A DNA stretch of 64,000 nt, taken from assembly GCA_903828565.1 (NCBI GenBank), contig CAIKMQ010000032.1, forward strand, positions 62,001 to 126,000, read 5' to 3'. This document shows, piece by piece, positions 4,903 to 10,293 of the stretch; position 1 is the stretch's first letter; each line of letters opens with the position of its first letter. Source of the DNA: an uncultured Leptolinea sp. Lineage in GTDB: Bacteria; Chloroflexota; Anaerolineae; Anaerolineales; Anaerolineaceae. The notes under the pieces were generated by a model. The model was not told the origin of the DNA, made no database searches, and saw only the letters and a program-made list of their open reading frames with translations. The position numbers were made by a program, and so were the translations under genes.

Positions 4903-6579
4903 ATGAACGATAAGCAGGTAATCTTTTCTATGGTGCGGGTGGGGCGTGTCTTTCCGCCCGGGAATAAACAGGTGTTGCGTGATATTTCTCTGGGTTTTTA
5001 TTTTGGCGCGAAGATCGGTGTTCTTGGTTTGAATGGAGCCGGAAAAAGCACGCTCCTCAAGATCATTGCAGGGATGGATGACGGTTATACTGGAGAGGTG
5101 GTGTTTTCACCCGGTTATAGTGTAGGGTTGCTAGAACAGGAACCACATTTAGATGACTTGAAAACGGTACAGCAAGTGGTGGAAGAAGCAGTTCAGCCTC
5201 TGGTGGATATGCTGAAAAGATATGACCAGGTCAATGAAAAATTCAGTGAACCGGATGCAGATTTTGATGAGCTACTGATAGAGCAGGCAAAATTGCAGGA
5301 TGAGCTGGACCGGCGGGATGCATGGACATTGAGCAACCGCCTGGATCTGGCAATGGATGCCTTACGCTGTCCGCCGGGTGGTACGCCGGTAAAAAACCTT
5401 TCAGGCGGAGAACGGAGGCGTGTTGCCCTAACGCGGCTATTGTTGACCGAACCGGACATTTTATTGTTGGATGAACCAACCAATCACCTGGATGCTGAAT
5501 CGGTTGCCTGGTTGGAGAAGCACCTTCAGCAGTATCGCGGTACTGTCATTGCCGTAACACATGACCGTTATTTCCTCGACAATGTAGCGGGTTGGATATT
5601 GGAATTGGATCGAGGATATGGCATCCCCTGGCAGGGTAATTATTCATCCTGGCTTGAGCAGAAACAGGAACGTATCCGGCAGGAAGAGCGGGGTGAGAGC
5701 AAGCGCTTGAAGACTCTTGAACGAGAGTTGGAGTGGATCCGGATGTCGCCGCGCGCCAGGCAATCCAAGGGAAAAGCGCGATACACAGCATATGAGGATC
5801 TGCTGACACAGGAAACCGAAAAAAGGCGGGAAGAACTCGAGATCTATGTTCCACCGGGTCCACGACTGGGTGATAAAGTACTAGTCTTCAAGGATGTAAG
5901 CAAAGCTTACGGAGATCGCCTGCTGCTTGAACATGTATACCTGGATATTCCGCACGGCAGTATCGTTGGGGTGATCGGCCCGAATGGCGCCGGAAAAACG
6001 ACTCTGCTGAGGTTGATCACCGGGCAAGAAAACCCGGATTCAGGGAGTATTGAAAAAGGTGAGTCGGTTAAACTAACATACTTGGACCAAAGCCGCGCAG
6101 CGCTTGATCCAGAGAATACCGTGTGGAAGGAGATTAGCGGAGGTGAGGACACTCTTGACCTTGGCGGCATTAAAAGAAATTCCCGGGCTTATGTCAGCGC
6201 TTTTAATTTTCAGAATGCTGATCAGCAGAAGCAGGTGGGTGTTCTTTCCGGCGGTGAACGCAATCGGGTTCACCTGGCAAAAATGCTGCGAAATCAGGGT
6301 AATGTAATCCTCTTGGACGAACCGACGAATGATCTGGATGTGAATACTTTGCGGGCATTGGAAGAAGCCCTGGAAGCGTATGCCGGCTGCGCCATTGTGG
6401 TCAGCCATGACCGCTGGTTCCTGGACAGGATCTGTACACATATTTTGGCTTTCGAAGGGGAGAGCCAGGTTTGGTGGCAACCGGGCAACTGGACAGATTA
6501 CGAGGTTGACAGGAAGAAACGCCTGGGTATCGCCGCGGAAACACCACACCGGGTGAAATACCGCAGCCTGACGCGATAA
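4903..6579 (+). CDS. ettA: ABC-F ATPase, EttA (energy-dependent translational throttle)
   Basis: Two ABC domains with GLNGAGKST / GPNGAGKTT and LSGGER signatures; EttA-like length. The track start 4651 lies inside the preceding CDS and upstream of the terminator. Confidence 0.88.
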   Translation: MNDKQVIFSMVRVGRVFPPGNKQVLRDISLGFYFGAKIGVLGLNGAGKSTLLKIIAGMDDGYTGEVVFSPGYSVGLLEQEPHLDDLKTVQQVVEEAVQPLVDMLKRYDQVNEKFSEPDADFDELLIEQAKLQDELDRRDAWTLSNRLDLAMDALRCPPGGTPVKNLSGGERRRVALTRLLLTEPDILLLDEPTNHLDAESVAWLEKHLQQYRGTVIAVTHDRYFLDNVAGWILELDRGYGIPWQGNYSSWLEQKQERIRQEERGESKRLKTLERELEWIRMSPRARQSKGKARYTAYEDLLTQETEKRREELEIYVPPGPRLGDKVLVFKDVSKAYGDRLLLEHVYLDIPHGSIVGVIGPNGAGKTTLLRLITGQENPDSGSIEKGESVKLTYLDQSRAALDPENTVWKEISGGEDTLDLGGIKRNSRAYVSAFNFQNADQQKQVGVLSGGERNRVHLAKMLRNQGNVILLDEPTNDLDVNTLRALEEALEAYAGCAIVVSHDRWFLDRICTHILAFEGESQVWWQPGNWTDYEVDRKKRLGIAAETPHRVKYRSLTR

Positions 6580-7104: not shown

Positions 7105-9648
7105 TCAGCACTCGCTGAAGCCACAGGCATAACATTTACGGCAGCCTTCTTCGTTCACTACAGCCGCCTGCCCGCATTCGGGGCAGAGATCACCGATCTT
7201 CAGCATGATTTGCTCAACAGGCATGGGTACCAGGTCTACTTCAGTATATTCAACCTCCGAAGCCTGCCCGCGCTCATTCAGGTAATCATTCAGGGCTCTG
7301 GCAACTCCATCAGGCAAAGAACGAACCCGGTTGGGGCCAAACCCCAGTGACCTTCCCCCGCCGATACCAGCCAATTGTTCGTACACTTCTTTCAGGCGAT
7401 CAACAGCTTCCACAGGGGAAGCCAGGCGCAAGGTATAAGAGATCAACCTGCCAATCGCCTCGGAGACAGCGGCAGTATCAGAGCCGGCTTTGGCAGTATT
7501 GACAAATACTTCAAAGGGTTGAGAACCACCATTCTCGTTGATGGTAATAAAAGCTTTTCCAAGTGGTGTTTCAATGGAGTACGTTGACCCGTGAAGGGAA
7601 CGTGGACGTGGTTTCTTTGATTCCTGCCATAGATCTGGTTGCAGGGTAAGCTCAATGGAATTATTTTTCGAGCTGGCTGTGGAGGCTGTCTCAAGAACTT
7701 CTTTTTCACGGCTACCGGTCACATAGACGGTGATCCCTTTACATCCAAGTTTCCAAGCCAGGGTGTAAGCATGGGCAATATCATCTGGCGTGGATCCTGC
7801 GGGGAAATTAATGGTCTTGGAAAGGCTATTATCTACAAAACGTTGTAGTGATGCCTGCATATAAACATGTTCTTCCGCGGAGATATCTGCGCTCACCACA
7901 AAGACATCCCTGATATTTTCAGGCAGTTGTTCAATGTTCTGACAGGTGCCTTCACGCATCACCTGAGCGATCACATCCTGGCGGGCTTCACTGGTAAGGT
8001 CGCAGGATTGCAGCGCTTTTTCAAAAGCCGGGCTGGCATATGCCAGAGTCAGGTCATTCCCGTTGTCATTCACATGGCGGATATATGCCAAAGCAAACAC
8101 CGGCTCGCAACCATACCCTTCGCATCCGGCAACAGTAGCGATCGTACCCGTAGGTGCGATCGTTGTTTGAGCGGCATTGCGAATACCGGTGGAGCGGATG
8201 CCAGCGGTGATCATCTGCCAATCTAAAGCAGGTCGATCGAAATCTCGCGTGTACGGTGATAATGGAGCAGGCGCCTGCCAGGAAAAAGCTTCAGGATCAT
8301 AGATGCTTCCCTGAATGGCGGGAAAGGCTCCCCGGGAGCGGGCCAGTTCGATGCTGGTAGCCATACAGTGGTAGCGGATGAATTCCATTACTTGCGCGCC
8401 AAATTCCATGCCAACATCGCTGCCATAGCGGATATTGGCATGGTACATCAAATCTCCCAACCCCATGATACCCAGGCCAATACGCCGGGCATTATGAGCT
8501 GCCAGCTGTAATTGTGGTACTGCGGGTACATAGGCATTAGCTTCTACCACATCATCCAGGAAAATTGTGGCGCTAACAACGCTTTGCCGCAGGCTTTCCC
8601 AATCCACTGTTCCTTCCGGACCGCAATGTTCTGCCAGATTCACTGATCCCAGGCAGCAGTTTTCATACGGGCCCAGCCATTGCTCCCCGCAGGGATTCGT
8701 GGCTTCCAATGGGTAGAGGTGTGGAACGGGATTGGACTGGTTGGCAGCATCCAAAAAGAGCATACCGGGCTCGCCATTGTGGTGAGCCTGGATAACTATT
8801 TGCTTGAATAACTCTCGTGCCCGAACGGTTCTGTAGGTCTTCAGGGGAACGCCCAATTGCTTCAGCTTTTCAGTAGAACCTTTCTGTTTTTTATATCCCT
8901 CATGCCCTACGTCTGGGAAAACAAGGTTCCAATCCCCATCCGCTTCAACTGCCCGCATGAATTCATCCGTGATCCCGACCGAGATGTTAAAGTTCGTGAT
9001 CTGATTCTCATTGGTCTTGCAATTGACAAAATCCTCAATATCCGGATGATCCACCCGAAGGACAGCCATATTGGCTCCGCGACGGGTACCACCCTGGGCG
9101 ATCTCGCCAAAAGCGTGATCATAAACACGCAGGAAACCGACCGGGCCGGTTGCCTGACCGGCGGAGCTTTTTACCAGCGCACCTTTTGGGCGTAACCGTG
9201 AGAAAGAAAATCCATTTCCACCCCCGGTCTGTTGGATGAGGGCAGCATCACGCAGTGTTTGGAAAATGCCATCAGTGGCTTTTCCCATGTCATCACTGAT
9301 GGGGAGCACAAAACAGGCAGCCAGCTGTCCGAGAGGTGTGCCAGCGCCGGTGAATGTAGGTGAGTTAGGAAAGAACTTCTTGCTCGTCAATAATCGGAAA
9401 AATTCCACCGCCCGGAGTTCAATATCTCCGTTCCAGGCGGATTCTACTTTGGCAACATGATAGGCAATACGCCAGAACATTTCTTCTACAGATTCAACCG
9501 GGCTGCCATCTGCTCCTCTTCGAACATAGCGTTTCACCAATACCTGGCGGGCATTCTCCGAGAAGTTCACCTCAGGTACCTCAAGCGGCATGGGTGGGGT
9601 CGGTAACAAACCGTTTTGGGTGATCGTGGAATCCTTATCTGTGCTCAT
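7105..9648 (-). CDS. nrdJ: Adenosylcobalamin-dependent (class II) ribonucleotide reductase
   Basis: [47 protein letters not shown]-terminal CPECG...CYACGFSEC. Confidence 0.95.
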
Positions 9649-10100
9649 TCTGTTCCTTCCAATAATTCATCAATCTCATCGCGAATGGCTCGTAAATCTC
9701 CCAGTTTCAGATAGACTGAGGCATAGCGGATGTAGGCGATCAAATCCAGTTGTTTCAGTCGATTGATGACGCGGTCCCCGATGACCCTTGAAGGTACCTC
9801 GGGTTTACCCAAGTTCTCAAGATAGCTCTCCACCTCGCCTGCGATATGGTCCATATCATCAGCGGAAACTGGTCGTTTCGCGCAGGCGATCTTAATCCCT
9901 CTCAACAACTTCTCCCGATTGAATTCTTCCCGGCTGCCATCTTGCTTAATGATCAGCGGGATGGAATCCAAAGCCCGTTCAAGGGTGGAAAAACGTAGGT
10001 GGCAACTATCACATTCACGCCGGCGGCGTACTTCACCACGAGCGTCGTGAGAAGTATCCAAAACCCGGGATTCAGCATAACCGCAAAATGGACAACGCAC
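9645..10100 (-). CDS. nrdR: Transcriptional repressor NrdR (GTG start)
   Basis: [42 protein letters not shown] zinc ribbon plus ATP-cone. Confidence 0.97.
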
Positions 10101-10120
10101 GGTTTTCTCCTGTTACCTGT

Positions 10121-10140
10121 TACCCCTATATATAGGGGTA
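10121..10140. promoter_or_regulatory. NrdR box 1
   Basis: Perfect 20-nt palindrome TACCCCTATATATAGGGGTA, 21 nt upstream of nrdR. Confidence 0.85.
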
Positions 10141-10152
10141 GTAATACTGAAC

Positions 10153-10168
10153 CCCCTTTATATAGGCA
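10153..10168. promoter_or_regulatory. NrdR box 2
   Basis: CCCCTTTATATAGGCA, 13/16 identical to box 1 core; centres 30 bp apart. Confidence 0.8.
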
Positions 10169-10180
10169 TCGTTAGAATTC

Positions 10181-10209
10181 ATTCTAACATGCCAGATTGT
10201 GCTTTACAA
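10181..10209 (-). promoter_or_regulatory. Candidate nrdR-nrdJ promoter
   Basis: Minus strand TTGTAA (10209-10204), 17 nt spacer, TAGAAT (10186-10181). Confidence 0.6.
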
Positions 10210-10262: not shown

Positions 10263-10293
10263 AAAAAAGCCGTACGGATTTTCCGTACGGCTT
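10263..10293 (-). terminator. Intrinsic terminator after ftsZ
   Basis: AAGCCGTACGG / CCGTACGGCTT perfect 11-bp stem, T-run on the minus strand. Confidence 0.9.

Follow-up and report, generated by a model that had tools for sequence, protein, structure and literature searches.

Two palindromic boxes in front of nrdR, with a probability that we put at about 90%, are the operator of the nrdR-nrdJ operon, through which NrdR would repress its own synthesis under the control of dATP, and both the DNA-reading loop of this repressor and its boxes have changed in the clade to which the genome belongs. NrdR is a near-universal bacterial repressor, and its DNA-reading residues, D15 and R17, have been taken as conserved. 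Autoregulation of a class II RNR operon by NrdR is an ordinary, known kind of switch, and its assignment to this locus is very likely right; the clade-wide change of loop and boxes is what is new at an otherwise known promoter type. The original prediction, made from the letters alone, was incomplete in this respect, having missed the replaced Arg17 in the recognition loop as well as matching boxes upstream of dnaA. Below, the window denotes the whole 64,000-nucleotide stretch of DNA that was analysed, which belongs to a Chloroflexota genome of the Anaerolineaceae type.

The nrdR-nrdJ operon and its promoter

The features of the locus are as follows.

7105 to 9648, minus strand: nrdJ, 847 aa, class II RNR without an ATP-cone, overlapping nrdR by 4 bp
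9645 to 10100, minus strand: nrdR, GTG start, 151 aa, Zn-ribbon and ATP-cone repressor with D15-T16-S17-H18-D19 and not D15-S-R17
10107 to 10111, minus strand: AGGAG ribosome-binding site of nrdR, read from the sequence
10123 to 10138: predicted proximal NrdR box (16-mer), inside the perfect 20-nt palindrome TACCCCTATATATAGGGGTA at 10121 to 10140; PWM score 23.1, pairs kept in relatives
10153 to 10168: predicted distal (promoter-side) NrdR box, CCCCTTTATATAGGCA (minus strand TGCCTATATAAAGGGG); imperfect, PWM score 11.9
10181 to 10189, minus strand: extended -10 TGTTAGAAT of the nrdR-nrdJ promoter, conserved in relatives
10204 to 10209, minus strand: -35-like hexamer TTGTAA, 17 nt from the -10, a single consensus match
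10267 to 10293, minus strand: intrinsic terminator after the upstream ftsZ, separating ftsZ from the nrdR promoter

Read along the minus strand, ftsZ is followed by the terminator, the promoter, the distal box, the proximal box, the ribosome-binding site, nrdR and nrdJ. The predicted identities of both genes were confirmed by profile searches. Residues 1-146 of the 151 in NrdR match TIGR00244 at 164.1 bits (curated equivalog cut-off, 124.65), with an N-terminal Zn-ribbon (PF22811, 55.9 bits; cut-off 27.2) and a C-terminal ATP-cone (PF03477, 68 bits; cut-off 25.8). The protein also matches solved NrdR structures (E 3e-33 and 4e-27), its nucleotide-site residues I50, K52, E58, K64 and Y130 correspond to E. 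coli V51, K53, E59, K65 and Y131, and the RRRR motif is retained. NrdJ is a class II RNR by TIGR02504 (632.3 bits; cut-off 399.95), with a barrel domain scoring 434.8 bits against PF02867.

An N-terminal ATP-cone is present only in some class II RNRs and is not required for membership. As predicted, NrdJ appears to lack one, giving no match to PF03477 in the profile search, and NrdR is the only ATP-cone (PF03477) protein found in the 99%-complete genome, a result that also argues against a typical NrdA or NrdD there. The proposal that NrdR may be the only nucleotide sensor is overstated, as class II RNRs normally retain a separate dNTP-binding specificity site, which NrdJ should still have. 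No leader RNA or cobalamin riboswitch was found in the window, which yielded two tRNAs only.

A conserved pair of boxes in the initially transcribed region

The two boxes, centred at 10130.5 and 10160.5, are 30 bp apart, and the second departs from the 16-mer of the first at three positions. Both are located downstream of the -10, within the initially transcribed region. The sequence features of the original prediction were borne out: a perfect 20-nt palindrome (10121-10140) with a second copy (10153-10168) at a centre distance of 30 bp, and a TTGTAA-17-TAGAAT promoter, which is on the minus strand. The boxes do precede nrdR, although the palindrome ends 20 nt, not 21 nt, from the GTG. Within the window, the 16-mer of the first box occurs three times at up to three mismatches, compared to 0.20 expected in shuffles, and two of these occurrences are the boxes described here. 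Pattern searches of the whole 2.2-Mb genome found the 20-mer to be unique at up to three mismatches. When the paired core was sought at 30-bp spacing, the nrdR locus matched with one mismatch and 10 other places with three (6 for a control pattern), leaving nrdR as the sole locus with fewer than three; the suggested genome scan for paired boxes, run at this spacing, singled out the nrdR pair as the only near-perfect one. A PWM built from nrdR promoters across the order, among them that of the window, scores the nrdR pair at 35.0 and the best pair elsewhere in the window at 8.6.

The classical NrdR box is written as ACACTATATATAGTGT. Compared with the consensus acaCwATATaTwGtgt, the box matches at C4 and the ATATAT core and has C, not A, at positions 1 and 3, in agreement with the earlier remark that the GC-flanked core differs from the classical ends.

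This arrangement is conserved. Of the 81 genomes from this order, NrdR was detected in 77, and when box pairs were sought at spacings of 26-45 bp, the best pair had a centre spacing of 29-32 bp at 76 of 80 Anaerolineales loci (31 bp in 49, 30 bp in 21, 32 bp in 5 and 29 bp in 1). Lack of conservation of the boxes upstream of nrdR in relatives had been named as grounds for abandoning the original prediction; with pairs at these 76 loci, this check does not refute it. An extended -10 (TGnTAnRAT) precedes the distal box by 1-15 nt at 71 of the 80 loci, and these make up almost all of the 73 motifs of this form in the 28 kb. Together, the pair spacing and the -10 conservation define a common layout, with the promoter followed by a distal box near the transcription start and a proximal box 30-31 bp beyond. 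TTTAAG/CTTAAA motifs also recur in the regions upstream of nrdR and dnaA in Anaerolineales (for example L280, L289, L045 and L060); relative to the box upstream of dnaA, they are at about +111 to +117 in most genomes.

Alternatively, the palindromes could act as RNA, pairing in the 5´ leader to form a hairpin that attenuates or stabilizes the nrdR-nrdJ mRNA. In the predicted fold of the leader (-21.4 kcal/mol; z = -2.1 relative to shuffles), the two boxes do pair, but such a fold is expected, since two copies of one palindrome must pair, and the leader matches no Rfam family. Moreover, the boxes remain mostly 30-31 bp apart in relatives while the start codon is anywhere from 4 to >150 nt away, and this spacing, together with the conserved AT core, fits a protein on DNA better. 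We rejected the hairpin on these spacing grounds and regard it as extremely unlikely.

Predicted autorepression by NrdR

For S. coelicolor NrdR, an ATP/dATP-loaded tetramer was found on box pairs, with a kink of ~90 degrees per box (PMC9110341). Four NrdRs bind best when the boxes are three helical turns apart and then again at four (PMC12051234), and three-turn box spacing is required by NrdR tetramers (PMC12051234; PMC9110341). From work on the S. coelicolor, E. coli, Listeria and Streptococcus proteins, we infer NrdR binding, repression and dATP control for the operon studied here. In this model, abundant dATP would lead a NrdR tetramer loaded with ATP and dATP to bind both boxes simultaneously, about three helical turns apart, to kink the initially transcribed DNA immediately past the extended -10 promoter, and so to repress nrdR itself together with the class II RNR. 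When dATP falls, NrdR would leave and the operon would be expressed.

The S. coelicolor nrdRJ operon likewise consists of nrdR followed by a class II nrdJ, with two 16-bp boxes approximately three turns apart, and encodes a repressor of the same Zn-ribbon and ATP-cone type, with D15 and RRRR in common (PMC9110341). The systems differ in that both boxes are downstream of the -10 here, the boxes read CCCCyATA here and ACACwATA there, and Ser stands in place of Arg17 (in most relatives Thr does), followed by a basic residue 18.

A clade-wide change in the recognition loop and the boxes

The specificity of S. coelicolor NrdR comes from D15 and R17, which read a conserved C-G pair, and the R17A substitution abolishes DNA binding (PMC9110341). 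D15 is present in the window NrdR, where residue 17 is Ser; with this residue in place of Arg17, the protein might bind weakly or differently. Arg is absent from position 17 throughout the sampled order, where Thr, Ser or some other residue is present, and the GC-flanked box, CCCCyATATATrGGGG, is a clade-wide variant. In an alignment of Chloroflexota loops anchored at D15, positions 17 and 19 separate 115 R17 NrdRs from 96 non-R17 NrdRs almost completely. Residue 18 of the latter is usually basic (His in 73, Lys in 9 and Arg in 8 of the 96) and residue 19 is Asp or Glu in 93. Loop lengths differ after residue 19, so that H18 may substitute for R17.

The boxes vary in parallel. With a search motif left free at positions 1-3 and 5, A3 was found in 73% of the half-sites from 63 R17 loci and 16% of those from 74 non-R17 loci, while C5 was found in 16% and 57%, respectively. 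In this Anaerolineae clade, the change is from D15-x-R17 to D15-T-(T/S)17-(H/K/R)18-(D/E)19 in the loop, and from CACwATAT to CCCyATAT in the boxes. In a NrdR tree built without the loop columns, a single branch (SH-aLRT 97) separates all the non-R17 proteins from the others, giving one change. The loop-box association therefore has one origin and no independent repeats. There are exceptions to the association: a Dehalococcoidia genome with R17 (L228) pairs one classical with one GC-flanked box, and GC-flanked boxes are present upstream of nrdA in three Gammaproteobacteria (L173, L206 and L218).

Two further groups of NrdRs were observed. In one family of the class (f77; L329, L331, L336 and L339), NrdR carries A/S15 and D17, yet paired boxes of the C5 type are present; the D15A variant of S. 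coelicolor NrdR binds promiscuously. At six other Chloroflexota loci (L138, L139, L142, L143, L144 and L152), there are two NrdR matches per genome in frames of ~210-340 aa, where a divergent Zn-ribbon-like segment appears after a normal NrdR Zn-ribbon start, a possible tandem-ribbon NrdR.

Matching boxes upstream of dnaA

Searching GTDB genomes for ACCCCYATATATRGGGGT yielded 107 stretches, mostly from Anaerolineales among the matches listed. Among the 80 listed of the 107, 26 are located at nrdR, another three directly at nrdJ, and others upstream of dnaA. The nrdR-trained matrix gave a box scoring at least 14.8 in 23 of 31 dnaA upstream regions, whereas 621 similarly sized control blocks taken from relatives gave none (Fisher p = 6e-36, which is indicative, since the blocks and genomes are related). 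Best-scoring partners of the dnaA box, sought from -70 to +70 bp, are at offsets of -39, -41, +32, +31, +33, -40, +30 and -30 bp, corresponding to three and about four helical turns. The position relative to the promoter is also constrained: in 22 of 25 genomes, the box is followed by the start of the dnaA -10 at a distance of 170-187 bp, and in 20 of these at 174-179 bp. In the genome studied here, two NrdR-like boxes, one strong and one weak, are spaced 30 bp apart upstream of dnaA (G000:C25:6166-6181 and 6196-6211; L440:2667 and 2697), at distances of approximately 146 and 176 bp to the -10 of this gene and at positions conserved in relatives.

Significant dnaA boxes were found in 0 of 21 Chloroflexota outside Anaerolineae (taken as R17), which gave a few weaker matches, and so are not a phylum-wide trait. 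Within the class, they were found in 4 of 14 R17 genomes and 26 of 46 non-R17 genomes, and the non-R17 dnaA boxes have the same C3/C5 composition. At out-of-phase spacings, 12 of the 46 non-R17 genomes were significant, driven by the single strong box. These sequence patterns indicate that dnaA is probably a NrdR target in Anaerolineae.

Integer-turn spacing is shared with the NrdR sites of Listeria and Streptococcus, which have three- or four-turn spacing, with three boxes at S. pneumoniae nrdHEF (PMC12051234); the dnaA partner offsets are 30-33 and 39-41 bp. The 39-bp offset is ~1 bp under the four-turn range that was tested (24-27 bp spacers, 40-43 bp between centres; PMC12051234), and the boxes here precede dnaA rather than an RNR operon. 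An NrdR-type box at a DNA-replication-related gene outside RNR operons has a precedent in P. aeruginosa topA, for which one box and activation were shown (PMC4409342), whereas at dnaA here there are often several, located ~176 bp before the -10. Our literature search, which did not include the 2005 Rodionov and Gelfand survey or RegPrecise entries, found no report of NrdR boxes at dnaA.

The perfect palindrome ACCCCYATATATRGGGGT also occurs among DnaA boxes at about 12 loci (L155, L164, L172, L177, L187, L189, L195, L212, L215, L219, L221 and L224), several of them adjoining spoVS, which look like oriC. At eight of these, it is within a longer palindrome whose outer arms vary and stay self-complementary, with A/T tails (hairpin- or terminator-like). 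In the genome studied here, a DnaA-box cluster adjoining spoVS (G000:C3:17500-18300; L435) is a candidate oriC, where a search for the palindrome gave weak NrdR-like matches only (scores 10.7 and 10.0).

Copies of the palindrome at dnaA and in putative oriC regions would also be explained if these sites were read in Anaerolineae by a regulator other than NrdR, such as LexA or a DnaA-like factor, and this reading can further draw on the differences between the palindrome and the classical NrdR box and on the replacement of R17. Against it, the core, C-ATATAT-G, is that of the NrdR box, the spacings, three turns at nrdR and three or approximately four at dnaA, agree with the ones reported for NrdR, and the box differs across the very branch on which the NrdR loop changed. 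We consider a different regulator very unlikely, and continue to favor NrdR.

A broader model, which we put forward tentatively as a possibility somewhat less probable than an even chance, is that NrdR in Anaerolineae controls not only RNR but also replication initiation, as a dATP-gated regulator that bends DNA. By binding the dnaA arrays, and perhaps the oriC palindrome, it would let the dNTP pool directly set DnaA supply or origin firing, with the loop and its sites having changed together once.

A clade in which NrdR lacks R17 and the boxes have shifted amounts to a natural experiment on the recognition of kinked DNA. The link between dNTPs and initiation has so far been known mainly in reverse, with DnaA acting on nrd promoters. 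If the broader model is true, the dnaA boxes would represent a direct route from dNTP level to replication initiation.
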